A stretch of DNA of 64,000 nucleotides from Arenicola marina. Its lineage: Eukaryota > Annelida > Polychaeta > Arenicolidae. Both the position numbers and the translations under genes were made by a program. The DNA is taken from the NCBI GenBank assembly GCA_964019135.1, contig OZ025263.1, positions 19,073,123-19,137,122 on the forward strand, given 5' to 3'. The notes below the pieces were generated by a model, which saw only the letters and a list, made by a program, of their open reading frames with translations, was not told where the DNA came from and searched no databases. Shown here piece by piece: positions 6,827-57,400 of the stretch (its first letter is position 1; the number at the start of each line of letters is the position of its first letter).

Positions 6827-20178
<13,352 letters not shown>

Positions 20179-31433: not shown

Positions 31434-34400
31434 ATGGAGAACACGAGAGATAGCCTATTGAGGAAGTCATGTGACCTGTTGGTGGACCAGACGTTCGTCA
31501 AAGGCGAGCAGCGGTCAACAAAGGTCATGGATTTCAAGCGTCCAGAGGAGTTGAAGGTCAGTGGTCACGCCAGGCTCGATTAGCTATTTTTTTTCCTTTA
31601 TTCCCAATTCTTCGGCCATTCCGCAACTCTTGACGAATTTGGAAGTCTATATCTAAAAGCGCAATTTAGCCCAAATGGGACCCCTAGGATCTGGATGCTG
31701 GATGAGTACAATATAATAACTGCTGTTCAACGCGGGCTGTTATCCGAGATAGAGGGCGCCATTTCGAGTGAATACGTCTAAATCCCGACTTTCTACGTGC
31801 GCTTGGTCAGGGCGCGCCAGGCTAAAAGCATGCCGAATGGCGGCCATCGCAACCCGAAGGAGTGCCGGTCCATATCGCCGTTGACTCATAATGAGAGCGC
31901 CAGCAGGGATGTACCTCTTGCGGCTGCTCTAGCCGCCAAACTAAGCGTCCTGGGGCAATTCTATAGCCATCTCGTTTACACTTTTCTTCGGCTTCATGCC
32001 AAATCTGGGCTCCCTAGCTCAAATATTAACCGTGTTTTGGCCCACCCAAAATTCAAAAGTCACTTGACGCGAGGTTGACGTACGCTATATTTTGATTGCC
32101 TGATTACTCGAAAAACGTTCAGTATGCGAATGACGCGTTTTCGCTTCTTTCTAAAGAATACTCTCAAACAAACAACGGATCTCTAGACCTAATACTTACG
32201 CCGCTAATATTGGGTCTAGAGCCAGACTCGTGTGAAGTACCATGGCCGAGGCCGGGGCCAGACACGTGTGAAGCATCAGGGCCGAGGCCGATGCCAGGCT
32301 CGTGGGAAGCATCAGGACCGAGGCTAGACTCATGTGAAACATCAGGACCGAGGCCGGGGCCAGACTCGTGTGAAACATTAGGACCGAGGACGGGGCCAGA
32401 CTCGTGTAAAGCATCAGGACCGAGACCGGGGCCAGACTCGTGTGAAGCATCAGGGCCGAGACCGGGGCCAGACTCGTGTGAAGCATCAGGGCCGAGGCTA
32501 GACTCATGTGAAACATTAGGACCGAGACCGGGGCCAGACTCGTGTGCAGCATCAGGGCCGAGACCAGACTCGTGTGAAACATTAGGACCGAAACCGGGGC
32601 CAGACTCGTGTGAAGCATCAGGGTCGAGGCCGAGGCTAGACTCATGTGAAACATCAGGACCGAGACCGGGGCCAGACTCGTGTGAAGCGTCAGGGCCGAG
32701 ACCAGACTCATGTGAAACATTAGGACCGAGACCTCGGCCAGACTCGTGTGAGCCTACCTTCTACCGCCCCTCCCCCCTCCTACGGTACGGCGTGATGGGG
32801 AGGTAAAAGCGAGGCCTCGCCCCTCCCTCCTCCCACGGTACGGCTTGATGAAGAGGTAGAAGCGAGGCCTCGCCCCTCCCCCCTCCCACGGTACTGCGTG
32901 ATTGGGAGGTAGAAGCGAGACCTCGCCCCTCCCCCCTCCCACGGTTCGGCGTGATGGGGAGGTAGAAGCGAGGCCCCGCCCCTCCCCCCTCCCACGGTTC
33001 GGCGTGATGGGGAGGTAGAAGCGAGGCCCCGCCCCTCCCCCCTCCCACGGTACTGCGTGATTGGGAGGTAGAAGCAAGGCCTCGCCCCTCCCCCCTCCCA
33101 CGGTTCGGCGTGATGGGGAGGTAGAAGCGAGGCCCCGCCCCTCCCCCCTCCCACGGTACGGCGTGATGGGGAGGTAGAAGCGAGGCCCCGCCCCTCCCCC
33201 CTTGCACGGTACGGCGTGAGGCGGAGGTAGAAGCGGGGCCTCGCCCCTCTCATGGTACGGCGTGATGGGGAGGTAGAAGCGAGGCCCCGTTTTCCTGTAC
33301 TTTATGCAATGAGTAAAACTAAATATGACGATTGATTGCTGCCGAAAGTTAAAGCGCTGTTTACCCTAGATATATAATATACTGCAGGAACTGATGGATT
33401 TCTCCATCGGCGAAGCTGGCGTTGGTGAGAAAGAAGTACTGGGACTACTTCAGCAGACAGTGGATTACAGTTTGCAGTCCGCATCCCCTCGGTTCTTCAA
33501 CCAGCTATATGCAGGCCGAAATGTTTATGGACTAGCCGCAGCACTGCTTGTCGAGGGTCTCAACACCAACGTGTAAGTCACTCAAGGTCAAGTGAAGCAA
33601 CACCGGTCAAACTAGACAACAACAAACAGTATGTACTGCTGGTTATGCCAGATATTTAAAATTGCACAGCGGCGAAATTCATCAAAAAGCATTGACAAGG
33701 CAAAAGTCTCCCACAGGCTGTCCGAACATTTACGGTCCCTCAGTACTGAATGGGTTTAGATCCCGGACCCGGTGTCACAGCTGGCCAAAGCCACAGCTAT
33801 AATAGATTTTGTGCACTGTATAATCATATACTGGGCGTCTAGGCAATGGGTACATATTGCAACATTGTGTGGCATCCAGCCATGCGTGCGAGACTGCGCT
33901 TGTCAGAAAATTCTGTCAGTGCATACATCTTTTTGTTTTCATTATTTCCGTAGCCATACTTACGAGACTGCGCCCGTTTTCTCTATGGCTGAGATGGAAG
34001 TTTTGAAGGCCGTTTGCAATAGGATCGGCTACCAGGACGGGGAAGGCATCTTCATGTCCGGTGCGTCATCATATATACGCTCATATGTTAATAAACTCAT
34101 GTGTTATATATCGTCATATATTCGTTAATATGTGAAAAATCGCCGATGTACATTCCTGTTGAAGTTTACAGATGTAAGTTCATATGGCAAAAGTAACATA
34201 TGTACGCTCATGTTGAATGTCACGGATGTACGTTCCTGTTGAAGTTCACAGATGTACGTTCCTGTTGAAGGTCAGAGATGTACGTTCATATGTCAAAGAT
34301 CACAGATGTACGTTCGTGTTGCAGGTCACAGATGTACGTTCATATGTCAAAGGTCACAGATGTGCGTTCATGTTGAAGGTCACAGATGTACGTTCATGTT

Positions 34401-37400
34401 GAAGGTCACATATGTACGTTCATATGTCAAAGGTCACAGATGGACGTTCATGTTGAAGGTTACAGATGTACGTTCATATGCCAAAGGTCACAGATATACG
34501 TTCATGTTGAAGGTCATATGTCAAAGGTCAAGATATAGGTTCATGTTGAAGGTCACCGATGTACGTTCATATGTCAAAGGTCACAGATGTACGTTCATGT
34601 TGAAGGTCACAGATGTACGTTCATGTTGAAGGTCACAGATGTACTTTCATATTGCAGGTCACAGATTACGTTAATATGACAAAGGTCACAGATGTACGTT
34701 AATATTTCAAAGGTCACAGATGTACGTTAATATTTCAAAGGTCACAGATGTAGTTCACATGTCAAAGGTCACATGTGTACCTTTATATATCACATGCTAT
34801 TTTATAAGTTCATTTGTCAAAGGTTATATATACGTTCATAGGTCAAAAGGTCACAAACTAGTTCCTTCATATCTTGTGCACATGAAGCGATTTGTTACTT
34901 TAAATAAGATGCTATGAATTAATTTGACTTGGTGTTCTATGTTGAACCGAAGAGTTCATGAATGCAGGTCTTAACCGTCCCGGCGTTGCTGTTTTCGACG
35001 CTCTCTTTGACGAAACCCTGATAGTGCAATGACTAATGCTAATTAACAATAAAATTAAGTATACGATATATATAAAACTACGATAAGTAATACGTATATA
35101 ATATTTACCCACGCAGAATTTCCTCTTGGTCACAGATGGGGTCTTTCTGAAAAATGACATCACTATAAAGATATGTCAGATATTCACCAGCGCCGAACTA
35201 CGTTCTTGGTTGCAGGAGGTTCACTGTGCAACATGATGGGGTTCCATATGGCCCGCTACAGACACGACAACCTGGCCAACAAGACTGGGATGTTCGGCTC
35301 GCCCAGACTTGTCATCTTCGCCGCCGCCAACGTCAGTCAAACCCACGGGGTTATGTCCTCCTTGCACCCTATTCTACCAACTGTACCCAAACGTGAGGGG
35401 TGCAGGTGGGGTATTTTCTCTTTTTAGTCTGCATATGAGCGATTGAGCGTATTACGATGACCAACTTGCCTTTTAAATGGGGATAGCTTCATCATCCGGT
35501 TGACTTCATTAGTCCGTAATAGTACGACAATGCAATTTTAATGAGCTTGTATATATAATGAGCTGCACTATATAATTTAACCATAGCACTGGATCCTGCA
35601 CTTATTGACCCAGTCGTTCATCAAATGTTTGAATGACGAATGTCGCCATTAAGCAATATCCCATGTTGCTTAATGAACTTAGTCCCCAAATTAGGGCAGC
35701 GATGAAGGTGCGTTTAGCGATACGGTCGTTGCTGCAGCTTATTGCAACTCCACATCAAAATATCGCTGAAATGTTAAAAATATATACAATAGATAACTCT
35801 AGACTATGACGGGATCTAACTGGCTTTCATGTGTCGCAGGCTCACTATTCAGTGAGGAAAGGGACCAGTTTTCTTGGTTTCGGCACGGACAGCATTGTAC
35901 CTGTAGCGGAAGACGACAGGGGCAGAATGATACCCGCAGAGCTCTCCAAGGCAGTTCAACAGGTCAAAGACAAGGTCAGATGGCTCCAAATACGCATTAG
36001 ATTCGTTAATTAGTTTTCTTTTTCCTGTGATCTTTCCGCATGGGTTGACTAATTTGACGTGTGTTTTAGCCGTGTATACAGTAACTTAAATATATATACG
36101 GTCTCTTGAATGGGATTACGCTTGCGTGAATTCGTATGGTGGGGTGAAAATTCAACGACCTTCAACCAGTTGTCAATGAGAATGAACTTGCTGGTGATGC
36201 AAATGTAGATTACTTCATGATTGATACCCATACGTCAATCGAATTATGGAGCACACATTGACTTGTTTTATTTTTTTGCACCCTGTATGAATCCAAAACG
36301 AATCTTGTTTTTTAGATGTTATCTTCTCGGTTACACTTTTTCTGTTACTACAGTTATATTGTGTTTTTGCGGAAAATTCGGTTATAGTGCTGAAAATAAG
36401 AATGGTGTATGTTGGTGAAATTAACTACATGCACGATGCGGCACCGGTGTTAGGTTTGCGAATCTAGCTTTTCTTTCTACGCCAGCCCAAAGCTATCGAA
36501 TATCTTAACATATAACTATGTTTGTATGCACCAAAAACCTTCAGCATATGAGAGCACGCTAAGTGTCACTAATCCACCATAAACTTATGGCTAACAATGA
36601 ACCCAATCAATATAAGTAGTTTCAATACACGATGATACAGACCCAACAGATATTCTAGCTGCTGAAGAAACCTTTTTACTCACAACTATATTTACAAAGG
36701 CCTGAAATGGAAGGAAACTATCCGGTAGGCTAATGGACAAATTCCTGGATGAAGCTATCATTAAATTGAGCCCATAATCGACACACCTTTGTGACCCAGA
36801 ATTAACATAAAAATAATGTACTGAAGCCCTAGCTCAAATGAAAAACAACAAGGCCCCCGGAAGTGGGATATTTCCACCGAATTGTATAAATTCTTCTGTC
36901 GGGATATACAGTATAAAATAAACCTCTGACCAAAGAACAGAGATGCGGTGTCTTGACGCTTTTTCCGAGCACTAACAACGCCCTTTGCTACTTGGCATCG
37001 TGGAGACCGCGAAGCCTATTGAATACTGACTACAAAATGTTAACAAAAGCACAATAGGATGCATGATGTCGTCAAAGACCTAGTTAATATGGACCAATGC
37101 GGATACAGCAGAGATCGCTATATCGGAGGAAATGTTAGAACTATCGCAGATACTTCTGAATACTGTAATATGCACAACACTCTAGGTTTTATAGCATGCC
37201 TTGATTTCGAAAAAGCGTTTGATACCGTTTCCTGGCAGTACTTACACAAGGTACTAAAACATACGAAATTTGGCTCATACTATAGACACTGGATTGACAT
37301 GATATATACCGACATCACCAGCTCTTGCATGAACAAAGGTCACTCAACCCTATTACGCCAAGCATCAGACATCGGATACGCGCCTTACTTTTTGTTGTCG

Positions 37401-40400
37401 TAGTAGAAACACTTGCAACAAGGATTTGCAGCGACCCCAGCGTTCGTGAGATAAACGTGGATAATCCATATCTAAGGCACTTAGTATATTAGACCAGTTC
37501 GCGTTATGCTCAGGGTTAAAGCTCAACAAAAACATTCGTAGTTTCTTTACCTCGTAACTGCAGATTAGACACTATACATAGCATAGAGGTTAAAGGATCG
37601 ACTTTCAAAACCCTGTGTATTTTCTTTGATAGAAAACAAACGGCTAGATGCCACAAAATCTGGAAGACAGATTATCTAAGTTTAAAGCTGTACTCACCAC
37701 CTGGTCGGCTCGCCGGCTATCCCCAAAATGTAAAATAACCATATTGAAAAGTCTAGCACTCCCGCTGTTGACATATGCTCCCGCTGTCATTCACGTTCCC
37801 GAGAGCTCTATCAAATATGTCAAAAGCGAAATAGCAGCTTTCCCGTGGAATGGCAAACGACCCAAAGTGCGATATTCTACTGTGATATCAGACATGCCAA
37901 ATGGGGGTCTGAAAATGCTGTTTCACCGCAATTATTGCTAGCCAAAAGGCACTATGGAGTAAGCGAGTTATATCGGGTAACGATCTATAAAAGGAAACAA
38001 AGCAAGTTAGCCCCCAGCTTAATTGGTCTTACAAGACAAGAAATTTGAAGTAAACCCAAAGGCTATTTTACCAACAAGTCCTAAAAACTGGTATGATGTT
38101 TCTCGGTAGAGCCCGAGGGGGCAAGCATGGCGATTGGAGATTAGAGTTCCAAACAATACAACTGACTTACAAGTATTGGGCAGATCATGGTATCACACAC
38201 ATACATTGCTTGATTCGGTGCTTTCTGGAAAAAAGTTCTTTTGGAAGAAAAATACCAAATTCAAATCGACGCGCTGAAACTAAACAGCCTCATGCATGAT
38301 ATTGCCAAACAATGGCGTACGTCACAGCGACTGGAGCTACACACAACGCGCATATACTACAACGAGGAAAAGCCACACATCAGAATTAACTGATAATTTT
38401 TTTATGTAGATGAAATAAAGAATCATCAAATATATCACATTCCCCACCCACTGCTATCGCCACATGCCTAGAATAGCTCCCATTTCTAGCGGAAAACATC
38501 TTCAGAACGTTCTTTTCAATAGCTAATACTGCAACACGCAACACTCAGATATTTCCAGTACATTTCCAATACAAAATCCTCCATTAAGACCTTCAACGGG
38601 TGATGTTGTACGAGCAGCGATCAATAGGATCATTATTTGTTGCACTTAAAGCTGCCATGTCCAATTGCTGTATGCTGTAAAGAGGGGTGGATATTCCTAT
38701 GTTTCCATGTCAAACGTAAGCCGTTATGTACCAACGCCCCTCCCCCTCTTCTCCCCTCCCCCACCAACATAATTCTCCATTTCATGAATTTAAATTATTT
38801 GGAAACAAAGCTAATCGATGACATTTTGAAATAAAAAAATTCTCATACAAAACGCGGAATATCGCATTCGAAAAGAACGATCCTGAGGAACCGGGTCTGA
38901 CACATTAATGACGAGGCACGTTTCCGTGACAACGCACCCTCTCTCCCATTGAGTAGACAAAGCCCGTGCCCAGGAGCCGTGAAGCATGCATTGACCCCGT
39001 CCACTTATTATCGTGACACAGGGAGACATCCCGCTGTGTGCCCTCGCCACCTCCGGTACGACGGTCCTGGGTTCCTTCGACCCTCTGGAGGCCTTGGCGG
39101 ACATCTGTGAAACACACGGCATCTGGCTGCACGTGGACGTGAGTTACCATGCCAACAACCACCTTGAAATATTGATATAATAATCAATTGTTATATATAT
39201 TATATAGTGATAATATATGACAATATTTGTTTTAATGTTAGACGATTTTGGTCACGCACCTGATTGGCGGGTACATCTATCCTTCCGACAGATCAGAACG
39301 TATTTAAACGCCGCATTTACCACAAAGATTAGGTTATTATCCTCCAAACCTATCCGTCTTCAGAGGACAATCTGACCGAATACAGTGATCTGTTGCATTG
39401 CATCTGCAACAGAGCATAATTTTTAAGATTTTAAATATTTGAGCAGTTGATTGGGGACTTATATGAGAGTGAAATGCGCCTGTCCTGCGGTTAGTCTTTG
39501 TATGTATCTCTCAGGAAGTCAGGAATTTATTAATAGTATATATATATATATCGAAAGTTTCACAATTGTATTACGATTCCTCCTGCAGGCCTGTTGGGGC
39601 GGGGGGGTCCTGTTCTCTGACACACACAGACGCCTCCTTCAAGGTATCGAAAGGTCAGTCCCATCGTGCCCTGCATCGCGGCTGTTGACTGCAGTTACGC
39701 TTCCTTAATGGCTCAATGACTCCCCTTGCACGTGCTACGTTAGTTTACACGTCCATTACTCCGCTTTAATAACAATAATAGCGTTTATTTGCTATAAGTG
39801 TTGTGTCTCCCGTATATAAACAGACGTGCACATCACAACTAGCAGCAGAAGCCCCAGCGTATATGCTAACACACTGTGTAATATAACTATGCAGGGACCC
39901 CCACACACCCTTAACAATATTGTTATGAATTTTATTATTGCTATTCCTATAATTATTACTATGATACTGGCGATACCGGAAAAACATCAGTCGATCATGT
40001 GCACTTAATTTAGCAGAATTGCAATGTCATATTGGTGACTATTCTTTACCGCCGTCTAATAACGATTAGCTCCATGCATTTAAACATTACTTATGTGCAA
40101 TCAGGCAATTGTATCTGTATTTTCATAAGGGTAGATATTGCATCGATAGATGTGAATATATATACGGTTGTGGGCATTTTAGGACGGATTCCGTGTCGAT
40201 CTCCTTCCACAAGTTGGTGGGTGCACCCTTACAATGTGCTGCCGTGATGACAAGGCATCGTGTAAGTGTCGTAATGCGCTACTATAGGGAGGGGGCGGGG
40301 GCAGCCCGAATGGCTTAGTGGCTAATGCGCTCGGTTTTGTCGTGTGAACTCTGCCAGGCCAGCCATCGTGCCCGAGATCTGGGGTTCGCTGTGCCCCATT

Positions 40401-43400
40401 GTACGAAAGACTACGTGCGCGCAGAATAAATATCTTTGTCAAGGGTATGGTTTACCCATGGGATGTGATGCTTCTCCACCCTTGATCCTCCCCACTGAGG
40501 CGATATGGACTGTTCATACGTAGAAGCATCCTCGAGCAACCACCCATAACTACATGTGCTTTTACAGAAACGACTATCCGCTATGCACTATTAAAAGTCA
40601 TCAGATATTCTGGCAACCTTTCTGTTAATAGGAAAACGCTTATTATTAGATTACGAACGATATTACTACGATTATTGATATATATAGGCCTATATGGATA
40701 TATCAGTCCAACTCCTTGCAACAATAGGTCAATGCTACTTAAAAACTGTTAGCATCTCTGTCCCTTTGTCTTGTTTGTGCTTGATATCTATGATTTGTGG
40801 CACTCACCATGTGAACACTGAAAATGGATCTGTGACATAATCCTTTCTTCATCTTCTGTTGCAGACACTATTAAAGGAATGCAACTCCACAAATGCATCT
40901 TACCTTTTTCAAACCGATAAACAATATTACGAGCCAGCTTATGACCTAGGTAATGGCCTGCTTTTGAAAGAATTGACTAACATATGCTTATAACTTATTT
41001 GTCAAATTATCGATCATGGTGTACCAGTTTCTCCATATATATATGATAGTAAATTATTTGTGTGACGTTATTATCATATAATGATGAACAATATTTCACG
41101 GAGCCATATAAATATGTCCAAAGTTGGATTATAGCATTCAATGTGACCTTACATGACGTGACGCTGGCCTCTGTCATAATTGTATTTGTCCAACAGCTTC
41201 TTTGATACAAATGAAAGTGCACGCAAGTGCCTAAAACACAGCACTGACCAGTCTTACTTGCTATATAATGCAATTTTAGGGAACCTTACCATCCAATGCG
41301 GACGAAAGGCCGACGGTTACAAGTTCTGGATGCTGTGGAAAGCGCTTGGCCACAAAGGGATCAACGACTTGGTTGACAAGTTCTTTGATCAAGCCAGGTA
41401 GACACCTCTGTCAGCTATTACACTAGCTATATTCAATATTCTATGGACAATTATTTCAATCCATAATCATGAGTCAATTATTCACGAACTCATAAGCAAG
41501 CGGAGAAGCACTGGCAGATCACGAATCCGCTATGGTTGATATATATCGATGAATATTTCGAAATCTGGTAATGTATACACTGTAAAAAGACCAGGGTCGG
41601 TATTTATAATTATATAAGACAATCTACGGTCTGAAAGTTGCTCTTTAAACCAAATGTAAATAAACGAAGCGGTGGGATCACATGAACTATACATTTCGAT
41701 TAGTCTTAGGATAACTGATTAAGGTCAAAGTACCTACCATGGGAAAGGCCACATTTTCAGCTTAATTGAGCGGGAATTAAACGCACAATCATACGGTCAG
41801 AGGTCCGCCGCTCTACCAACTGACCTATCAGGGTAGCTGTCTCAAGACGCATGCTTGTGAACTCATGCTTGTGAACCTCTTCCCGCCAAATTTGTGCGGT
41901 CCCGCTCATCTAATGTTTACCTTTTGTGGAAATTATTTAAGAGGTTAGAAAAAGAAATGTCGGCAAAATTATCCATACCGCCTCAACACACCATACATTT
42001 TGATATATATATATATATACCACATGCAAACAAATTCGAACATATTACAGTGCATACAATTAACGCAAAAGTAGGCTTAAGGTAATTGTGATGACATATG
42101 TCGTACCCTGTCAGGTACTTTACGGAGAAGCTGAAGGCGACAGATGGCTTCAGACTGGTGTTACCGGAGGTAAGAACAGTCCCATATTTTACTTCATCAA
42201 ATTGGTAACGGACTGGGTGATACACAACTGTCCATCTGTCCACTCACTCAAGACTGAAGTTATTTGTAGCCGTTGTCAACATGAGGGCCTCGGGCTTGTT
42301 GTTTTTATAAAAAAAAACTAAACTTTAATCGCATTTTGAGCGCACGCTTCGCCAAGTGACTCTAGTGTGATCGTGGTGACGGGTGTCCAACGATGCATGT
42401 TCCGACTGCTGGTGAAGCGTGCTGTAGGCGTCACCATGACCAGACATGCGCGCTGCAACTTCCGTTCATAGACTAAATAGTCCACAACCGAAGTCGCTCG
42501 TAGCCCCGACTAGTCTCCGATGGATATAAAGTAGGTTAGTGTTTTAGGTGACACATGTGAAGATATAGGCTAAATGGACCCATGGGATTCCCCGAGTATA
42601 GAAATGAAGTAGGTGGATGGATGGATTGGTGTTTAGGCCACTTTTGTACACGCATAGGCTAGGGCAAGGAACCCGTGGGACAGTGATATGAAAGGATAAC
42701 ACGGTCCCGGACACAGATCGAGTTTGAACCCGCAACCTAGTGGTCTGCAATAGAGAACGCTAACTCTCGACCACGGCGGCTCCTTAAATGAAACGGGATG
42801 GGGTAAAACATGCCCTAGATGCAGGGTACAAACAAATGAACAGCTGTAAGTTGACAGCTCAGCCCGCCTACCGATTAAGCTAGAGGAATTCATAGACACG
42901 TCACTGTGAAGTCGAGATGCTGCAAGTCCCTTTCCGTTGTTGCAGTTTGAATATGTGAACATCAGCTTCTGGTACATCCCACCCAGTATGCGAGGTCAAC
43001 CGGAAACCGCCGAATGGTGGCAGCGAGTAGGCAAGGTAAGAGTGGTCTGCTATACCACCGGAAACAGCCGAATGGTGGCAGCGAGTAGGCAAGGTAAGAG
43101 TGGTCTTATATACCACCGGAAACAGCCGAATGATGGCCGCTGGCTAGCAAGGTAAGAGTGGTCTGATATACCACCGGCAACAGCCGAATGGTGGCAGCTG
43201 GCTAGCAAGGTAAGAGTGGTTTGATATACCACCGAAAACAGCCGAATGGTGGTAGCGAGTAGGCAAGGTAAGAGTGGTCTGATATACCATCGCAAACAGC
43301 GGAATGGTGGCAGCTGGCTGACAAGGTAAGAGTGGTCTGATATACCATCGGAAACAGCCGAATGGAGGCAGCTGGCTAGCAAGGTAAGTGTGGTCTGATA

Positions 43401-46400
43401 TAAAAGTAAGAGTGGTCTGATGTACCACCGGAAACAGCCGCATGGCGGCAGCTGGCTGACAAGGTAAGAGTGGTCTGATATACCACCGGAAACAGCCGCA
43501 TGATGGCAGCTAGCTAGCAAGGTAAGAGTGGTCTGGTATACCACCGGCAACAGCCGAATGGTGGCAGCTGGCTAGCAAGGTAAGAGTGGTTTGATATACC
43601 ACCGAAAACAGCCGAATTGTGGCAGCTGGCTAGCAAGGTAAGAGTGGTCTGATGTACCACCGACAACAGCCGAATGGTGGCAGCTGGCTGACAAGGTAAG
43701 AGTGGTCTGATATACCACGGGCAACAGCCGAATGGTGGCAGCGAGTAGGCAAGGTAAGAGTGGTCTGATATACCATCGCAAACAGCCGAATGGTGGCATC
43801 TGGCTGACAAGGTAAGAGTGGTCTGATATACCACCGAAAACAGCCGAATGGTGGCAGCGAGTAGGCAAGGCAAGAGTGGTCTGATATACCATCGCAAACA
43901 GCCGAATGGCGGCAGCTGGCTGACAAGGTAAGAGTGGTCTGATATACCATCGGAAACAGCCGAATGGGGGCAGCTGGCTAGCAAGGTAAGAGTGGTCTGA
44001 TATACCACCGGCAACAGCCGAATGGTGGCAGCTGGCTAGCAAGGTAAGAGTGGTTTGATATACCACCGAAAACAGCCGAATGCTGGCACCGAGTAGGCAA
44101 GGTAAGAGTGGTCTGATATACCATCGAAAACTGCCGAATGGTGGCAGCTGGCTAGCAAGGTAAGAGTGGTCTGATATACCACCGAAAACAGTCGAATGGT
44201 GGCAGCGAGTAGGCAAGGTAAGAGTGGTTTGATATACCACCGAAAACAGCCGAATGGTGGCAGCGAGTAGGCAAGGTAAGAGTGGTCTGCTATACCATCA
44301 AAAACAGCCGAATGGTGGCAGCTGGCTAGCAAGGTAAGAGTGGTCTGATATACCACCGAAAACAGTCGAATGGTGGCAGCTGGCTGACAAGGTAAGAGTG
44401 GTCTGATATACCACGGGAAACAGCCGGATGATGGCAGCTGGCTAGCAAGGTAAGAGTGGTTTGATATACCACCGGAAACAGCCGAATGATGGCAGCTGGC
44501 TGACAAGGTAAGAGTGGTCTGATATACCACCGGCAACAGCCGAATGGTGGCAGCGAGTAGGCAAAGTAACAGAGGTCTGATATACCATCGGAAACAGCCG
44601 AATGGAGGCAGCTCGCTAGCAAGGTAAGTGTGGTCTGATATAAAAGTAAGAGTGGTCTGATATACCACCGGAAACAGCCGCATGGCGGCAGCTGGCTGAC
44701 AAGGTAAGAGTGATCTTATATACCACCGGAAACAGCCGAATGATGGCAGCTAGCTAGCAAGGTAAGAGTGGTCTGATATACCACCGGCAACAGCCGAATG
44801 GTGGCAGCTGGCTAGCAAGGTAAGAATGGTTTGATATACCACCGAAAACAGCCGAATGGTGGCAGCGAGTAGGCAAGGTAAGAGTGGTCTGATATACCAT
44901 CGCAAACAGCCGAATAGTAGCAGCTGGCTAGCAAGGTAAGAGTGGTCTGATATACCACCGAAAACAGCCGAATGGTGGCTGCGAGTAGGCAAGGTAAGAG
45001 TGGTCTGATATACCATCGGAAACACCCGAATGGTGGCAGCTGGCTAGCAAGGTGAGAGTGGTCTGATATACCACCGGCAACAGCCGAATGGTGGCAGCGA
45101 GTAGGCAAGGTAAGAGTGGTCTGATATACCATCGGAAACAGCAGAATGGCGGCAGCTGGCTGACACGGTAAGAGTGGTCTGATATACCACCGGCAACAGC
45201 CGAATGGTGGCAGCGACTAGGCAAAGTAACAGTGGTCTGATATACCATCGGAAACAGTCGAATGGAGGCAGCTCGCTAGCAAGGTAAGTGTGGTCTGATA
45301 TAAAAGTAAGAGTGGTCTGATATACCACCGGAAACAGCCGCATGGCGGCAGCTGGCTGACAAGGTAAGAGTGGTCTGATATACCACCGGAAACAGCCGAA
45401 TGGTGGCAGCTAGCTAGCAAGGTAAGAGTGGTCTGATATACCACCGGCAACAGCCGAATGGTGGCAGCTGGCTAGCAAGGTAAGAGTGGTTTGATATACC
45501 ACCGAAAACAGCCGAATGGTGGCAGCGAGTAGGCAAGGTAAGAGTGGTCTGATATACCATCGGAAACAGCCGAATGGTGGCAGCTGGCTAGCAAGGTAAG
45601 AGTGGTCTGATATACCACCGGCAACAGCCGAATGGTGGCAGCGAGTAGGCAAGGTAAGAGTGGTCTGATATACCATCGGAAACAGCCGAATGGTGGCAGC
45701 TGGCTAGCAAGGTAAGAGTGGTCTGATATACCACCGGCAACAGCCGAATGGTGGCAGCGAGTAGGCAAGGTAAGAGTGGTCTGATATACCACCGGAAACA
45801 GCCGAATGGCGGCGGCTGGCTGACAAGGTAAGAGTGGTCTGATATACCACTGAAAACAACCGAATGGCGGTAGCGAGTAGGTAAGGTAAGAGTGGTCTGA
45901 TATACCATCGGAAACAGCCGAATGGTGGCAGCTGGCTGACAAGGTAAGAGTGGTCTGATATACCACCGAAAACAGCCGAATGGTGGCAGCGAGTAGGCAA
46001 GGTAAGAGTGGTCTGATATACCATCGGAAACAGCCGAATGGTGGCACCTGGCTAGCAAGGTAAGAGTGGTTTGATATACCACCGGCAACAGCCGAATGGT
46101 GGCAGCTGGCTAGCAAGGTAAGAGTGCTCTGATATACCACCGGAAACAGCCGAATGGTGGCAGCGGGCAGGCAGGGTTCGACATTGACGCTTGTCCGCTT
46201 GGCCGGGACAAGCGATTTTGACTGTCGGACAAGTAAACACTTCCCTGTAGTTGTCCGACGGGACAAGTGCTTGCCGGACAAGTACAAAGTATTCAAAACT
46301 TTCGTAACCAGCGTTCGTTTTGTTGGCTTTCGTTGGTTCATTTGTTAATCCGTATGTGCAATCATTGCAACCGAATGCATGCATTTACCAATAGATCGTC

Positions 46401-47092
46401 GACAACGATTGTGACACTTATTGGTCCATCGTGTTTGTGGTACAATGTGAACGTGATTGGTGTGGTGCAATGTGAATGTGATTGGTGTGGTGCAATGTGA
46501 ACGTGATTGGTGTGGTACAATGTGAATGTGATTGATGTGGTGCAATGTGAATGTGATTGGTGTGGTACAATGTGAATGTGATTGGTGTGGTGCAATGTGA
46601 ATGTGATTGGTGTGGTGCAATGTGAATGTGATTGATGTGGTGCAATGTGAATGTGATTGGTGTGGTGCAATGTGAATGTGATTGATGTGGTGCAATGTGA
46701 ATGTGATTGGTGTGGTGCAATGCGAATGTGATTGGTGTGGTGCAATGTGAATGTGATTGGTGTGGTGCGGTGTTAATGTGATTGGTGTGGTGCAGTGTTA
46801 ATGTGATTGGTGTGGTGCAGTGTGAATGTGATTGGTGTGGTGCGGTGTGCACCTTGAGTCATGAATCGTATGGTACTATATTAGTATTTATTGTGCCCGT
46901 CATACTCGCCAGGTCGCGCCACGTATCAAGGAGCGCATGGTGACCAAAGGGTCTCTGGCTGTCGGCTACCAGCCTCAGGAGTCCATGGGTCTCGTCAACT
47001 TCTTCAGGATCATCATCGACAATCCTAACGCCACACAGATGGACCTGGACTTCGCCATCGAGGAAATCCATGAGCTGGGCAAAGACCTTTAG
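31434..47092 (+). CDS. CSAD: Cysteine sulfinate / acidic amino acid decarboxylase (CSAD/GADL1 type), 13 coding exons
   Basis: PLP-dependent group II decarboxylase, expected to make hypotaurine or beta-alanine from cysteine sulfinate or aspartate. Exons: 31434-31556, 33388-33572, 33954-34060, 35216-35331, 35840-35974, 39022-39138, 39589-39653, 40183-40261, 40865-40949, 41280-41397, 42115-42169, 42946-43035, 46913-47092. All phases agree; the product is 484 aa (human CSAD 493). Landmarks: PRFFNQLYAG (~70-80), ETAPVF, NMMGFHMARY, AHYS with the PLP-stacking His179, LATSGTTVLGSFDPLEALAD, WLHVD with Asp261, and DSVSISFHK with Schiff-base Lys293. The C-terminal part has NISFWYIPPSMRG and VNFFRIIIDNP. 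The usual N-P-H-K is F-H-K after Ser, and D-A-A-W is D-A-C-W; both are odd but keep Asp and Lys. CSAD versus GADL1 cannot be separated by eye. Exon 12 ends inside a minisatellite. Confidence 0.9.
32205..32755 (+). repeat. 30/36-bp minisatellite in CSAD intron 1
   Basis: About 16 copies of a unit of the form GGGCCGAGACCGGGGCCAGA plus CTCGTGTGAAGCATCA. Short units lack CCGGGGCC. It directly abuts the 53-bp array that follows. Confidence 0.9.
32756..33290 (+). repeat. 53-bp minisatellite in CSAD intron 1
   Basis: About 10 copies of a 53-bp unit with core GGGGAGGTAGAAGCGAGGCC and CGCCCCTCCCCCCTCCCACG. It ends about 100 bp before the exon 2 acceptor. Minus-strand open frames across it are artefacts. 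Confidence 0.92.
34140..34870 (+). repeat. ~29-bp minisatellite in CSAD intron 3
   Basis: About 24 copies, increasingly diverged toward the 3' end, of a unit like GTCACAGATGTACGTTCATA plus TGTCAAAG, with an alternate TGTTGAAG form. It starts about 80 bp after the exon 3 donor. Confidence 0.88.
36600..38420 (+). mobile_element. Dead L1-like LINE in CSAD intron 5
   Basis: Plus-strand reverse-transcriptase remains. A KAPGS motif (K-N-N-K-A-P-G-S) lies near 36850. LLNTDYKMLTK lies near 37020. ACLDFEKAFDTVSW (RT catalytic Asp in the F-D motif) lies near 37200. A C-terminal region with LALPLLTYAPAV and a PWNGKRPKVRYSTVISD block lies at 37740-37890. Frameshifts and stops are scattered, and the YxDD region is not recovered. 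It resembles L1/Tx1-type elements. Confidence 0.7.
38421..39021. other. CSAD intron 5 remainder
   Basis: No feature recognised apart from pyrimidine-rich sequence near 38735-38765, upstream of the exon 6 acceptor at 39021. Confidence 0.4.
40296..40442 (+). mobile_element. tRNA-like SINE in CSAD intron 8
   Basis: The head GCCCGAATGGCTTAGTGGCT resembles a tRNA A box. Further on, GGGGTTCGCTGTGCCCC sits at the B-box position. The tail ends GCGCAGAATAAATATCTTTG. The family differs from the other SINEs in the window. Confidence 0.5.
41740..41860 (-). mobile_element. Diverged tRNA-like fragment, CSAD intron 10
   Basis: The reverse complement contains GATAGGTCAGTTGGTAGAGC (a typical tRNA D-arm/A box) followed by GGCGGACC; the B-box region is decayed. 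The acceptor stem does not close, so it is not called as a tRNA gene. Confidence 0.45.
42625..42795 (-). mobile_element. tRNA-derived SINE, family B (CSAD intron 11)
   Basis: Read on the minus strand: head GAGCCGCCGTGGTCGAGAG, B box GCGGGTTCAAACTCG, and 3' end ACAAAAGTGGCCTAAACACC. A truncated second copy of the 3' half lies next to it at about 42538-42600. Related copies in the same orientation begin near 53604, 54777 and 60473. Confidence 0.6.
43000..46172 (+). repeat. 58-bp minisatellite containing the exon 12 coding end and splice donor
   Basis: About 54 copies of a 58-bp unit: 22 bases of intron starting GTAAGAGTGGTCTGATATAC, then 36 bases that copy the end of CSAD exon 12 (CCGGAAAC-GCCGAATGG, TGGCAGCGAGTAGGCAAG), followed by the next donor. 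Subtypes end GCGAGTAGGCAAG, GCTGGCTAGCAAG or GCTGGCTGACAAG. Nearly every unit keeps AAG/GTAAGAG, a strong 5' splice site. A marker variant (TATAAAAGTAAGAG) recurs at about 43400, 44640 and 45300, which shows block duplication. The minus-strand open frames of 100-290 codons are artefacts. Confidence 0.97.
46439..46857 (+). repeat. 25-bp minisatellite in CSAD intron 12
   Basis: About 17 copies of a 25-bp unit, GTGATTGGTGTGGTGCAATG plus TGAAT. It ends about 55 bp before the acceptor of the last exon. Minus-strand His-rich frames are artefacts. Confidence 0.93.
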
Positions 47093-48194: not shown

Positions 48195-49100
48195 AAGGAT
48201 GGAAAGCCAATTGAGCTTTATCGTTTTATACAATATAAACGACGCTCGACGCTGATTGGTTGACAATTCCCAAACCTTGAAGTTGATTGAAACTTTTGAA
48301 CATGCGCTAAGCTTACAATGCGTGGAAAACCGGCCCTCCAACTGCAGAGTTGGTCGAAAACTTGATTTCTTGCAAAGAACTTTACAACGTATTGCATCGT
48401 GTGACAATGTCATTACGGGGATTGCCAAGTTGAAGGGCATGGCCATCGTGATCCGGAGGCAGAAACTATGGCAAGCCGAAACGTTATCTATATATACATG
48501 TATTACGAACTTCTGACAATACTATTACCGCGGGACGTATTCGTAAGAAGGTATTACACAAATTCCGACTTTCATTTGCTTGGTTTTTCTAATATAAATG
48601 TAAAATATAGTGTTAGTTGTATATTCAGGACGCTTTACCACTGTCGGTCATATCGCGTAAATGGGAGGGCCATTAAACTACTACCTTAAGCTCCCCTCGA
48701 CCGACACGGCAGACTCGCGGCTATGTTTGGAGCAAACAACAAAACACCTGGTAAGGGTGAAAATGGGGTTTATTAATAAAGGTAATGGCCAGCCGGCAGC
48801 GGTACGCGCGTGCGCAACCTGAACATTGGCATCGCGCAGAGAGCTGAGACCTAACGCGTGTGTTAGCACCCAAGGTGGGGCAGCAGTCACCACCCACACG
48901 CGTAATACAAAGTGATGTGCGAGTAAAAAGAAACTTAGACCAGAAGGCAAATCGGAACCCGAAACAGGCAAGGCACGGTACATAATTCATATTCTGTCGA
49001 CATTACATGAACATAGTGAGGTAAAAGTACTTGTATGCATGAAAAAACACACAGGAAAACAAAAAACCAGGCGAAATCAACCAGAAGCTGTATCTTAATG
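48195..49100. other. Intergenic, no gene recognised
   Basis: Two overlapping 85-codon frames at 48189-48516 match no family known to me; nothing else is seen. Confidence 0.4.
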
Positions 49101-49560
49101 TAGTAACCATAGCACTAATCCATAATATTCAAGTCGATTGCAATTTGTCTATGATGGGATTCCACTTATCAATCAAACATTGCTTACATCTTTCTAACTT
49201 ATCTTGTACAACTGTTTCTTCTAGCAAATGGTTGTATTTGAGTTTTAACAAATGTATCACATTTGGAATGGAGTTTTTCCATTTACAAGCATAGATGTAA
49301 TTCTTAACAATAATAAATATCTGATTGACCAGAATCTTGTTTTGTCCGTTTTCTAACCCTAGCATAGCTGATTTAAAATTCAAATTATCACTTATTACAT
49401 GCACATTATTTCTACCGTCTAGCGCTGTAGATAAGCTGGTCCAAAGTCGCTGTGCAACATCACATTCCCAGAACAGATGTTCTATCGTTTCATTAACCTT
49501 ATGGCAAAAGTAAAAATTTTCAGTGTCTACCAGTTTACATAGAAAAAAAATGCATTAAAC
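49101..49560 (-). mobile_element. LINE 3' fragment (L1-like), copy 1
   Basis: Minus-strand C-terminal coding piece including KYNHLLEETVVQDKLERCK and KWNPIIDKL, typical of the extreme C-terminus of L1/Tx1-like ORF2 proteins. Continuing upstream (about 49420-49500), the minus strand gives a Cys/His-type segment reading YFCHKVNETIEHLFWECDV. A second fragment of the same family lies at 58240-58415. Confidence 0.65.
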
Positions 49561-49739
49561 TTGTGACTGACAGCTATTTGGGTCACAGGTAAACGGCTTA
49601 AGTTTGCGTTCGCCGATGGTGCGGGCTGCGGCAGGTTGTAGTTATTTCAGGACCAGTGTCAAGTCTGGTGAGGACAGGAGAGTGGGGTACCGGGGGAGTG
49701 GGGGGCAGGAGAATCATTTTTCCTTTTTTTAAAGAAATC

Positions 49740-51870
49740 TTTTTATTCTCCGAAAAGCGGCATATAACACATTGACAATATCGTCACATCTAAGTATCAG
49801 CGATGACATCATATATTGGGTCCCAGTTGGCTTTAAAACTCTCCCTCGCTCTTCCCGGTTTTTCTGCCACTCTGCTCTCTAGCTCAAAATAGTATTTTAT
49901 AAGCCGAATTATAGCCGTTACGTTCGGGGTATCTCCTTTCCACTTACAAAGATATATATGATATTTGGTAACAATAAAAATAAGATTAATCATTTTTTTT
50001 ATGTGGTGAAGCTGCCCAGAGTATAGCAGATGTGAAGGTTATATATTTACTAAAGTTGGATCGGCTTGACTCCTCTAACCATGCGCCTATGTTTTTCCAT
50101 ATCTGCTTTACTATGACTCAATCCTAAAACATATATTCTATTGCTTCGTCATTCTGGTTACACAAGGCGCATCTGTTTGATTCAGCCAATTTTCCCTAAA
50201 ACAACTAAAGTAGGAGTTGGTAACCATATTTCTACACACAAAATTATACTGGAAACTCCGCAGTCGTTCGTCCAGGGTGGAGCTCAAGGGTAACTTATGA
50301 ATTATTCGCCATTGGTATGCATCAATATCTTGGTTAACCTTCTCTTCCCATTTCGATTCACTTGTCTTGGCAAAAGTGCACGTTTTCACGATTAGCTTAT
50401 AGACAACATTACAAATTCTCCCATTCTGCCTTAAAAACATGTATTCTCTTTATATTAGGTTGATTTTTCCGCTGATCTTGGCATTGTGCTCTCAATTATC
50501 TGGGCAAGGTATGCATTAAACTATCCTCGAAGTTCATAATAACATTAGGCCTTTTACAAAACTCGCTCCATCCATAGGGAGAACCGTTTTCACTTAGCAT
50601 ATCGTTATAGAAAATCACCCCTTTCTTCCTAACTTCAGCTTTTCGTCGAGTCAGATTTTCGTTTTTTCAGAAGTAAGAATTCCAAATTGGCGCATCAAAA
50701 GGATGCTCCCCACGTATTATATTTTCGAAATGAATCCATTTTCTTAAAACCTCTGACCAAAAAGGGCTTGCTTTCGCTTCCAACAGATGCAGCCATTGCT
50801 TGTCGACCTCCCAACATAAGGTTTTGTCTTCGCAAATAGTTTCAGTGAAGAGGTTCTGCGAGGCTCCTTCTGTGGCAACTAGTCTTTTATCCAAGTAATC
50901 TTTAACGCCTTTATAAAGGATGTTATGTGGATCAGGTTAAGCCCCCGTCCTCTACCTGTTGTACCATGCGTTTCAGTGCAATCTTATATCGTTTTTTCTT
51001 CCCTAAAGAGGACCGTACAATACCCTCAAGACGATTAACAAATGATTTTTCTGGTAGGGGCGGAACAGATAAAACGTGCATCAACTTCGTTATAGCTAAA
51101 GTTGTCAAAACTGATACCCTGCATCTTAACGACAACTTTACGTCGCCCATAAACTGTTAACATATTTTCAACTTCTACCCCGATCAAAATTTAATTTAGG
51201 TACTTTAGTCAGATCAATGTCAAATGGTATCCCTAGCAGTACTAGCAAAACTTGTGACCCAACAAAGTTCTAGATCTGCGCATATCTTATCTTTATATTT
51301 TGGCCTTCTTCCCAGCCACACTGCCTTCGTTTTGTCGACATTTATCTTCAAACCTGAACATTTGTTTAACGCCTCTAATATCCGCATAGCAGCTCTCAAA
51401 GAACCTTCACTGCCTTCCAAGAACAGAAAAGTCTCGTCGGCATGTTCATCGAGTTTGTACAAATGCTGGAAAAATCAATACCTCTGATATTACTGTCTTT
51501 CTTAATTACCATAGAGAGTGGCTCAACGGCCAAGACAAATACGGTGACAAGGGGTCCCCTTGTCTGCACCCTCTCCACTTTAAAGAAGTCTGACAAGTCG
51601 CTATTGTTAATGACACGGCTAGCTATTAGATTCAAAAGATAAAATATTACAATATGTCCTAAACGACTCACCAAAACCGTATTCATTTAGTACTCGTGTT
51701 GTATATGACCAGTTCACCGTATCGAAGGCCTTTTCGAAATCTATTAACAGTAGCAATGAGGTCTTATTTTGTTCTTTTAAATAATGCATAACATCTTAGA
51801 CTAGCCTCGTTTTTTCGTCAATAAAACGACCGCTTTAGAATCCTATACTCTGCGTTAAGATTAAATATTA
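49740..51870 (-). mobile_element. Dead L1-like LINE, minus strand
   Basis: From high to low coordinates the minus strand reads LLLLIDFEKAFDTVNWSYTT (about 51760), then the RT active-site region as H-A-D-E-T-F-L-F-L-E-G (about 51440; the usual Y-A-D-D is changed), then SGLKINVDKTKAVWLGRRP. Next come QWRIIHKLPLSSTLDERLR and RSFQYNFVCRN near 50250-50330, and a C-terminal piece at 49790-49993. Frame breaks separate these, so it is inactive. Confidence 0.7.
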
Positions 51871-54490: not shown

Positions 54491-57400
54491 TTACATACAG
54501 CGAGGCAGCACCCAGGATTCCCGAAGGCCACCATTATAGTGCTGGGGGTTTCTACCTACCCAGGATGAGGACTTTGGTGGGGCTGCCGTATCATCGAATG
54601 GGCCCGAGGGACCCTGGTGGTCAGAGTAACGATGGGATACGCGAAGGTCAGGGTCATAAGTCAACGACGGACTCTGTAAAAACAGCACAATCATTACTGA
54701 CGAGATCTGGCGATGAATCACAAGCAATACATGTACATAAAAATAACTTGCATCCCAGAGAAAGGAAATGAACGGGCGTTTTAGGCCACATTCGTGCGCA
54801 CAATGGCTAAACTGAGCCCAGTAACCTCCCGGGACGAGGAAGGACGAGCGGATGAACAGTCCTCCACATATCGTTCCCAATTCAAATCCGGATTCGTATG
54901 CGAGACCTATTGATCTGCGATAACCAATACACCAGGGAGACCTCCTCCATAATGATTGAGATGCAATCCCATTTGCACGGGATGGGTTACGTTTTTCCCT
55001 TTTCACTCATTGGTTACTTTGCTGCCCCTATGTGGTCAATTATTCCACTTTCCAAATGGCTGCCATGACCACTAACCCGAGAGGATGCCCTCGCAGGCTC
55101 CGAGGCTAGAGACCGTCCCTCATCGTGGTAAAGGACTTGGCCCGTGACGAGGCCACCGAACATGGGGTCAGGTGCGGTGGGACGGAAGCGATGGGCCGCG
55201 AAGTCTCGCATGACAGACCAGTTCTGGAAAACGCGAATGTTGGGTCGCTTTTAAGGCCATTCAAGAATCCTTGGATAACGATATGAGACGCCAGACAGCC
55301 GCAATGTCAGGTTTGAGGATCGAACACGGGCTGTGGGTGACCAGTGGAAATACGGAGGCGGCTTCTGAGGGACAACGCGATGCTCGGCAACCTTCCCTGA
55401 CCGCACTGAGAGGTCACGACTCCATCACAGAAGAAATCGACGAAAAGACGTTACGAGTGCACGATTATGCACGCAAAAGAACAATGAAATGAAATGTTGC
55501 TTTATGTCCGTGTTGAGCACACGGGGACTCATTTATTCCAAGGAACTTCTGGGGAGTGAATGACTCGGATGAAATATATCCCAGATAACATCACCACACC
55601 GGGTTCGAACCAGACGTTCTTGTATATTACGTCGTGCCATTTAAACTCTGTATATAATACATTTCTTAAGGAAACATATCGTACAAAACGCCCGGGACAT
55701 TGCTACGGAACAATCTGAAATTGCTTATTCAGAGTGACTTCAACAAATATAAGGTGGACGGCTGCCTTTGAACCTCATTGTACTCACGATTGGGGTATGA
55801 TCGTCAACAGCCCTACTGATGTTGACAATTTTCTCTCTGGAGGGCACGTAGTCGTAGGCCGTCTTCTCTAGGGGCTCATGTTCCTTCAGACTACTCCCGC
55901 CGTCCATCCACAACCGAGTCAAAGGACCACTGAAATAAATGAAGGAAATGGCGGTTTACAGAAATGTCGACATGTTGACCGCCCATAAAACTAAAGTTTG
56001 TGTCAGCATACAATATGCGTTTAAGTCAACTGAACGTCCTTGTGCCCCCTATATCTGTACACGTAAATGGTTTCCGCACAATTCAAGAGTTGGTGCTAGC
56101 ACAACAGATGTACTTTGCACTGCTTTGATAATTTGAACTTTAGAATCATGATCCAAAATTGACTTTGAAGAATTAACCAGATTTTACTGTGTAAACGGCA
56201 GCTGAGATATAATTAGGCTACTTGTGGGGAAAGAATGCAGGAATGTACATTACAGAAGACGGACAAGCATAACACCTTACCCAGCCCAAGTTGGCTTAAC
56301 AGTTATTTCAAATTTGATAATATATAAAGCGAAAGAAAGAAACTAGAAAACTAGTAGGCCGGCCGCCAGAGTAATCTGGAGCCGACAATGCGTGCTAAAG
56401 CGTGTCTAAACGGCGGTCTTGCACATGGCGGGGGGGGGGGGGGGGGGGGGCAAGGAGTATTTGCGATTCATCGGGATTGGGCTTTTCATTTAACCGTGAA
56501 CTGGGAATGAGGAACATTATTCTTCGTGAATTGGGAATGGGGTATTAGCCGACCGCCGTGATCAAGGATTTTCATTAATCATGAACCGGGAATTTTAATA
56601 TTAAAACGGTGAAACGCCGATTCTGTCGTAGTCGGGTTTAGGCGGTTTATAAGGTAGGAATATATATAGTATAGTATATATAACATAATATATAAAATGT
56701 ATTTTTTATATTATGTATAGAATATAATACAGTATATGTAATATAGTATATATATTATCTCAGTGAAAGTTCTGTTGTCTAAATATGATTTTAATGATGT
56801 ATGGATTGACCAATCAGTTTATGACGAAAGTGTATTTATTGCTGAGCTAAACCAGAGATTAGAAAACTGTTTTATTGAAGAATGGCATATGAAGGTTAGA
56901 GATCAAAGTCGCCTTAGTGTGTTTTGTACATTTAAGGACCAACTCTTCTTTGAAGTATATTTACTGAGAGTAAATGTTGCCAAACTTAGAAAGTCTCTTT
57001 CGCGTTTTAGATGTTCAGCTCATAATCTCTCTATTGAATTAGGTCGCCGTGATGGAACATTACTTGAAAACAGAATTTGTAAACACTGTGCTGTAAGAAA
57101 TGTCCTTGTTATAGAAGATGAATACCACGTGTTATTGTGTTGCCCGAAGTTTATGGATATCAGACATTTATATATAGACAACGCTTTTTGGAATCCCCCA
57201 ACATACGAGAACTTTATTATGTTGATGTCAAGTGTAGATATGTTTACCCTAAGAAAATTAGCGATGTTTGTGCACACTCTAGAAAAACGTGTCAGCGCGC
57301 AGCTGTAATTTCAAAACACGGAAAATGTTATTATTTGTTGACAAATGTATATACGTTCATTGTTATGTCCCATGGGCCTGAAGGCCTTTTGACAAAATAA

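Follow-up and report, generated by a model that had tools for sequence, protein, structure and literature searches.

In the window, by which we mean the whole stretch of 64,000 nucleotides analysed here, intron 12 of a CSAD/GADL1-like gene contains a 58-bp tandem array that repeats the end of exon 12 together with its splice donor. Judged from its sequence, this array is a boundary-spanning minisatellite of the amphioxus "mirage" kind that would work like the human ABCA7 intron-18 VNTR. We consider it probable that a minisatellite has grown here neutrally and is tolerated since the first donor is the one chosen under exon definition, and that the products of the decoy donors would lack the proper C-terminus and mostly be targets of NMD. 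The gene (31434..47092; this and all features below lie on the + strand) encodes a taurine-pathway enzyme and was assigned from its exon model, its relatives and PDB matches (GADL1, 6enz, E 2e-151; CSAD, 2jis, E 3.1e-148). The homology-based model, which comprises coding exons only with a putative start codon at 31434, has 13 coding exons that translate to 484 aa without a stop. Coding exon 12 (42946..43035, 90 nt, with the final 37 nt inside the array) is followed by the authentic donor GTAAGA (43036..43041, AAG|GTAAGAG), placed by exon model and homology, and exon 13, the last coding exon, occupies 46913..47092 behind the acceptor CGCCAG|GTCGCG. In the alignment of the best 120 of 495 relatives, no row had inserted residues at the point where the last codon of exon 12 meets the first codon of exon 13; the first donor, at 43036, is thus demanded by protein homology across the junction. 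The stop-free model and the relatives' alignment agree with the sequence-only reading that the gene is CSAD-like and that exon 12 belongs to it and ends at 43035.

Tandem-repeat detection placed the array at 42999..46177, and each unit consists of the 36-nt exon-12 end, the donor and the rest of a 22-nt intronic part, which matches the earlier description of a 58-bp unit copying 36 coding bases plus the donor between 43000 and 46172. The estimate of about 54 copies was close, as the intron holds 53 exon-end copies, 52 in full units and a last one at approximately 46140..46175 that has lost its donor (GGCAGGGTTCG; read in the sequence, the end of paralogue c2 being nearly identical). Past the real donor there are 55 decoy donor-like sites, 52 of them in full units and the other three in 22-bp stubs that have a donor but no exon copy (the first at 43406..43427, the second and third with donors at 44646 and 45306). 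Including the real one, 56 sites follow each other at spacings of 58 bp (52 times) and 22 bp (three times). A separate, unrelated 25-bp array was detected as a tandem repeat in the same intron (46436..46843). The claim that the units encode the exon-12 peptide or variants of it holds loosely: they do encode variants of the exon-12 end, but just one of 52 reads exactly PETAEWWQRVGK in the exon frame, in which 35 different peptides occur and the commonest is PATAEWWQLASK (6/52). It is hardly conceivable that these variants serve as alternative exon ends or as a repeat domain, since the array reading frame meets a stop at 43153 when read on from exon 12, eight of the 52 copies contain stops, and none of the 120 aligned relatives (best 120 of 495) has residues there.

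Over the 56 donor-like sites, the 9-mers are AAGGTAAGA (45), AAGGTAAGT (3), AAAGTAAGA (3), AAAGTAACA (2) and, once each, AAGGCAAGA, AAGGTGAGA and ACGGTAAGA. Because 44 of the 55 decoys share the 9-mer of the real donor, AAG|GTAAGA, this donor cannot be told apart by its surrounding bases. Scoring the donor strength of all copies, a check suggested by the sequence-only reading, did not single it out either: its U1 duplex energy of -9.5 is shared with 44 decoys, and among the other decoys four are lower (-12.5 for three of them and -9.6 for the fourth) and seven weaker. The GT is kept in 51 of the 52 full units. Outside both this array and that of the SELENOO gene described below, U1 duplexes as strong were found at three GT sites in 18,208 positions of the introns of the two genes, which excludes a chance origin of the donor copies.

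We propose that the donor is picked by position and not by sequence, because with long flanking introns exon definition would join the acceptor of exon 12 to whichever donor is made first. This proposal draws on minigenes in human cells, which, under exon definition and with two identical donors that were both strong, used the upstream one exclusively (PMC9225289). Minigenes with larger exons, as described in the same study, skipped the exon once both donors were weakened, and the preference for the intron-proximal donor attributed there to Reed and Maniatis counts against a first-donor model (PMC9225289). The minigene data and those on ABCA7 are human; for exon 12 of the CSAD-like gene, first-donor use is what we infer. 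Alternatively, RNA structure might mask the decoys and leave the real donor open. Of the 56 donors, the real one is indeed the most open when folding windows are short, and every unit can, by eye, make a short GTGGT/ACCAC hairpin right after its donor. However, its openness rank drops to 11 and 24 of 56 in wider windows, the decoy median at the middle setting (0.21) exceeds all other donors of both genes (highest 0.15), and a four-unit fold reached a z of -1.70, with 10 of 200 shuffles folding as well. Visual inspection of the column counts for the CSAD units showed no compensatory changes in the unit hairpin, and we regard such masking as very improbable.

Nor do we favour the idea that the units are dual-specific AG|GT sites at which the intron is removed stepwise, each step restoring AAG|GTAAGA, so that the decoys would be harmless stepping stones. 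AG|GT is present in most units, and AGGT in the tandem repeats of UBC can act as donor and acceptor (PMC10809524). In UBC as described, however, the intron lies within the repeats and one motif serves both ends, whereas the exon-13 acceptor (before 46913) lies outside the CSAD array, which ends at 46177. The pyrimidine content before the unit AAG (median 0.41, range 0.29-0.47) compares with 0.41-0.88 in 24 real acceptors, so that only the weakest real acceptors overlap the units, and this route seems very improbable.

Under the preferred reading of neutral growth with first-donor choice, errors would still have a price. The expectation that the 58-bp spacing would usually shift the frame was right but understated: although the frame is kept by 18 decoys, each of the 55 is predicted to lose the normal C-terminus. 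Since every decoy has this cost and homology demands 43036, the further expectation that the first donor would have to be chosen accurately gains support. In 52 of the 55 decoy transcripts, the stop lies at least 55 nt before the junction, and in one it lies at 54 nt. By this computed geometry, 52 should be NMD targets, so errors would cost part of the output, mostly without protein build-up. Decoys 1 and 2 escape the NMD geometry and would yield proteins with a wrong C-terminus.

Such losses could also be functional if the donor array were a splicing rheostat, in which copy number sets transcript loss, by decoy use and NMD or by skipping, and thereby tunes enzyme dose. The predicted defects of the products of all 55 decoys would fit this idea, as would the exon-19 skipping and reduced expression that accompany longer ABCA7 VNTRs (PMC5954066), although unit retention in ABCA7 was reported to be constant across VNTR lengths (PMC5954066). 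In the window copy (c1), 47 of 52 full units have an intact AAGGTAAG, versus 52 of 94 in the dead paralogue c3, but this contrast may stem from few variants multiplied by duplication. Singletons in donor columns were depleted neither in c1 (4 seen versus 5.0 expected, of 29) nor in c3 (4 versus 3.4). Being near expectation in c1, they provide no indication that the decoys are under selection, and the drift of the exon copies into the many peptides and stops described above supports neutrality. We therefore consider a rheostat unlikely.

On the neutral reading, the array would have originated when a 58-bp segment spanning the exon-12 end (36-37 nt), the donor and 22 nt of intron was duplicated in tandem. 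Exchanges involving single or multiple units may have extended it into the intron, as blocks and stubs recurring at 660 bp and a strong lag at 1900 bp suggest, and it would have remained selectively near-neutral. The unit adjoining the rest of exon 12 would stay the true exon end. Two further, neighbouring CSAD loci in this genome, c2 and c3, have the same array with 11 and 104 decoys, compared with 55 in c1, so that array length is unstable among close paralogues with 95-99% similarity in the introns compared. The real exon reads ACCGCC in all three loci versus none of 157 full units (155 have an A there, one a T and one a G), indicating that the edge unit lies outside unit exchange. Paralogue c3 is dead. 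In c2, the G run of exon 7 has 5 additional G, and the c1/c2 comparison with exon 7 excluded yielded 13 nonsynonymous changes against 2 synonymous ones, no sign of coding constraint since this duplication; c2 is doubtful and may be dying or mis-assembled. Consequently, only the window copy shows a long array compatible with an intact gene. Long arrays are difficult to assemble and the exact copy number may be off, but the diverse units (mean identity 0.88), the three loci of differing length and the similar arrays in unrelated genes make it extremely unlikely that the array itself is an assembly artefact.

The same architecture had been claimed for SELENOO intron 9 at a distance of about 25 kb, and the two arrays are 25.7 kb apart. 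SELENOO coding exon 9 (13345..13545, homology model) likewise has a donor array at its end (13538..17287, tandem-repeat detection), with 96 copies of 39 bp and 96 donor-like sites starting at 13546, of which 95 are decoys, but only 8 exon bases are copied. In addition, a 40-bp array of 5.8 copies (17866..18097) repeats the acceptor and first bases of exon 10, which starts at 18084; three copies lie within 6 mismatches, and four decoy AGs were seen by eye. Donor arrays begin at exon ends in ALDH1L-like, TTLL-like and BLTP1-like genes too, and perhaps in an EGF-like gene. Genome-wide, three tandem copies of AGGTAAGT gave 7690 matches versus 3073 for the backwards motif, with matches in the same array not being independent. 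Donor motifs were found in the units of 5 of 39 arrays versus 1.07 expected; the CSAD paralogues account for three of these five, which leaves three independent cases. In the CSAD and SELENOO genes, three of ten long arrays cross a boundary (the short arrays 35539-35576 and 41850-41876 were excluded from this test), and random placement gave no consistent sign of array targeting to splice sites (P 0.044 or 0.14 under two settings of permitted overlap, 0.086 with collapsed seeds).

The architecture shared by CSAD and SELENOO is not unique, since amphioxus mirages and the ABCA7 VNTR are precedents. Mirages were described in Adh3, troponin C and the globins BflGb6 and BflGb9, with similar repeats in PGBD5 (PMC3087553, PMC3902484). 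As described there, they share with the CSAD array the minisatellite-type tandem duplication over an exon/intron boundary, the many units with splice signals, the edge units that escape homogenisation and the unstable length. They differ in scale, with 3-6 units in BflGb6 versus 55 (CSAD) and 95 (SELENOO) decoys in the window and 104 in a paralogue, and their splicing is supported by RT-PCR, whereas the present arrays are known from sequence. In ABCA7, the first GT of a VNTR of 12-427 units is the exon-18 donor, each unit offers another donor, use of the next one shifts the frame, and one-unit retention amounts to 2 +/- 1% (PMC5954066). The ABCA7 unit has 25 bp and begins at the GT, whereas the CSAD unit includes 36-37 exon bases, and effects on splicing and expression were measured in ABCA7 (PMC5954066). 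Mirages as described are borne by cephalochordates, whereas the present host is a lophotrochozoan, annelid-like in two protein trees, a difference of host and not of structure. In trees built on chosen rows (58 and 51 of the 120 relatives listed per search), SELENOO groups with Capitella, apart from three Branchiostoma rows, and CSAD groups with Paralvinella, with Ridgeia, another annelid, placed elsewhere. Among the matches listed, molluscs score best of all named relatives (CSAD 52%, SELENOO 59%), which, like the position of Ridgeia, counts against an annelid host. An amphioxus host, which the literature had suggested, was rejected because SELENOO is 58-60% identical to the three Branchiostoma proteins listed and groups with Capitella.

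Boundary minisatellites are already known, and what is new is the host lineage and the scale: beyond amphioxus and a single human disease locus, they now extend to a distant lineage of animals. Tentatively, and with considerable doubt, exon-end-plus-donor arrays could be a standing feature of this genome in hundreds of introns, where copy number would alter gene output, longer arrays leading to more skipping or decoy use, and repeat instability would translate into heritable splicing variation across many genes. The choice of the spliceosome among equal donors is usually tested with a few engineered sites. Here, dozens of near-identical cut sites lie in one intron, with just one giving the right protein, and three related loci, one of them clearly intact, form a natural dose series of 12, 56 and 105 donors. 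Together with several unrelated genes of like design, this series would make a first-donor-wins rule under exon definition, and its cost, measurable, and the occurrence of boundary minisatellites in a distant lineage bears on intron lengthening and the origin of new introns.

CSAD intron 12 carries a boundary array. The CSAD/GADL1-like gene (31434-47092, plus strand; window G000:C18:19073123-19137122 (+), from a genome of 867 Mb in 762 contigs) was modelled with 13 coding exons encoding 484 aa, GT-AG borders at 12 of 12 introns and no internal stops. Pfam Pyridoxal_deC hits it in two frames, and CSAD and GADL1 structures align with model residues 6 or 7 to 484. The end of coding exon 12 (42946-43035, +) and its donor recur, as the sequence-only reading had described, in a 58-bp tandem array with 52 full units (42999-46177, +). 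Including the authentic donor at 43036, the array holds 56 donor-like sites and hence 55 decoys. Of these, 52 belong to the full units and the other three to 22-bp stubs (donor copies without an exon copy); the final exon copy has no donor. Exon 13 starts at 46913 (+), downstream of an unrelated 25-bp array. A further array in CSAD intron 3 (34123-34792) begins approximately 60 nt past the donor, resembles the intervening sequence by eye and is possibly a donor-near array that falls short of the boundary.

Homology requires the predicted use of the first donor, 43036: in an alignment of the model with 120 relatives, listed from 495 found, no row had inserted residues at the exon 12/13 junction. 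Read-through beyond 43036 reaches a stop at 43153. The predicted product of decoy 1 has a frame-shifted tail ending at codon 483, that of decoy 2 stops at codon 474, and the remaining 53 all terminate at codon 465, at least 54 nt upstream of the exon junction (at least 55 nt in 52). The expectation that decoy use would usually shift the frame held for 37 of the 55; the other 18 keep the frame, yet none of the 55 gives the normal protein, because all stop at one of these three codons. On the predicted products and the alignment of relatives, accurate choice of the first donor should indeed matter, as had been proposed.

Nothing nearby distinguishes the authentic donor from the decoys. Its 9-mer AAG|GTAAGA also occurs in 44/55 decoys, and its U1 duplex energy of -9.5 is shared by 44 decoys; four decoys have lower values (-12.5 in three, -9.6 in the fourth), and seven pair more weakly. 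The authentic unit and the first decoy unit are 95% identical, and the AAGs of the array units are poor acceptors, judged by pyrimidine content. RNA structure concealing the decoys was considered as an alternative: the predicted openness of the authentic donor ranked 1, 11 and 24 of 56 at three folding-window sizes, and at the middle size the decoy median (0.21) exceeded the openness of every other donor of CSAD and SELENOO, so that concealment is not supported.

Neutrality of the CSAD array is the best supported reading. Singleton changes among the array units did not avoid the donor columns (4 of 29, vs 5.0 expected), and the exon copies encode 35 peptides, with stops in 8/52. Some relatives (Haliotis, Ridgeia, Lingula) have QKVGK or QKLGK, resembling QRVGK of the exon, in columns that vary widely; the QLASK/QLADK units were perhaps derived within the array. 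Blocks repeated at 660 bp and a top-scoring lag of 1900 bp form a pattern as in growth by unequal exchange.

Of 57 genomic matches listed for an exact 26-mer of the unit, 13 lie in the window and 8 and 36 at two sites on the same contig, 39-75 kb past the window end; none lies elsewhere. Both sites are CSAD paralogues (c2 and c3; L012-L016, C18 19175664-19212463). The inverted c2 (minus strand) has 13/13 exons, an exon 7 G run with five extra G, and 11 decoys. In the pseudogene c3, exons 5-8 and 10-12 were identified, with a stop in exon 12 and 104 decoys; exon 13 was searched for at this locus and not found, and by eye the array abuts sequence that sits past exon 13 in the window copy. The window copy is the only clearly intact one. 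Introns are 95-99% identical to those of the window copy (four compared in c2, three in c3), and ACCGCC stands at the authentic exon end in 3/3 loci vs 0/157 full units. Together with the common array and the differing decoy counts, this indicates that the array probably predates the duplications, that its length has changed freely since, and that the first unit remains outside exchange.

The second gene said to carry a donor array, SELENOO, does so at exon 9, where a 39-bp array has 95 decoys (spacing 39 in 89, 40 in six). With decoys 1 and 2 the frame stays open and 13 or 26 aa would be inserted; the other 93 lead to an early stop, 92 at one codon. At the opposite end of intron 9, a 40-bp array of approximately six units (17866-18097) copies the exon-10 acceptor and first exon bases, so that this intron has boundary arrays at both ends. 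The SELENOO end (20155-20178) reads ...LRVT-TGA-TCC-TCG-TAG, which is where SELENOO proteins have their selenocysteine; no Rfam match to a SECIS element was listed at E up to 1 in window 20000-64000.

Tandem copies occur at 3/48 CSAD and SELENOO splice boundaries (CSAD exon-12 donor, SELENOO exon-9 donor and exon-10 acceptor), and 164 kb contain 39 arrays (period at least 15, at least three copies) totalling 45.6 kb. A 63-bp array (21-bp sub-period, approximately 7.6 kb) runs from 61927 to 64000 and on into the adjoining stretch L009; along its window part, several frames are open on either strand. LINE reverse-transcriptase-like remnants were seen by eye at 49000-51800 (-) and 56800-57300 (+). 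Approximately 98 kb past the window end, a 51-bp array (L018 8538-9856, minus strand) may begin at an EGF-like exon (ECLDGYTLTANGACEY|GTGAGTG): its first copy matches cEGF at E 2.4e-4 and 21.3 bits, below the curated cut-off of 26.6, and further EGF matches lie within the same 10 kb. Three AGGTAAGT in series gave 7690 hits genome-wide vs 3073 for the reversed motif, counted as single hits rather than loci. The first eight distinct arrays of this list (contig C1, 0-19.7 Mb) were all taken as a sample. In three of them (L020, L024, L026), the first copy is a recognisable exon end, ALDH1L-like, TTLL-like and BLTP1-like; the match of the ALDH1L-like exon to 10-formyltetrahydrofolate dehydrogenase (E 4.6e-25) extends as far as the residue directly preceding the donor. 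In L023, an open stretch resembles an exon but has no Pfam match, and four of the eight showed no recognisable or exon-like start; among these four, L021 shows nothing because the fetched stretch lies wholly within repeats. If this density held, extrapolation from the one contig would give approximately 350 such arrays genome-wide (95% range approximately 150-700 from eight counts), covering one motif and spacing only. The one-contig sample suggests that boundary arrays may be a genome-wide habit.

Both trees point to an annelid-like host, SELENOO grouping with Capitella and an unnamed sequence and CSAD with Paralvinella (SH-aLRT 97 each); by score alone, the nearest named relatives among the matches listed are molluscs for both. 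The CSAD array has the same structural features as the amphioxus mirages, boundary-spanning minisatellites described as tandem exon/intron-boundary duplications in Adh3, troponin C and globins; comparable repeats are described for PGBD5 (PMC3087553, PMC3902484). In human ABCA7 intron 18, the first GT of a 25-bp VNTR is described as the exon-18 donor, with one-unit retention of 2 +/- 1%, and longer VNTRs go together with exon-19 skipping and reduced expression (PMC5954066); by analogy, the CSAD array would work likewise. In minigenes that combine long introns with a pair of identical strong donors, exclusive use of the upstream donor is described (PMC9225289). Searches of an open-access library gave no report of boundary arrays from annelids or molluscs, which is weak evidence of absence. 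Compared with the known systems, what is new is the lineage, together with the unusual length and number of the arrays.
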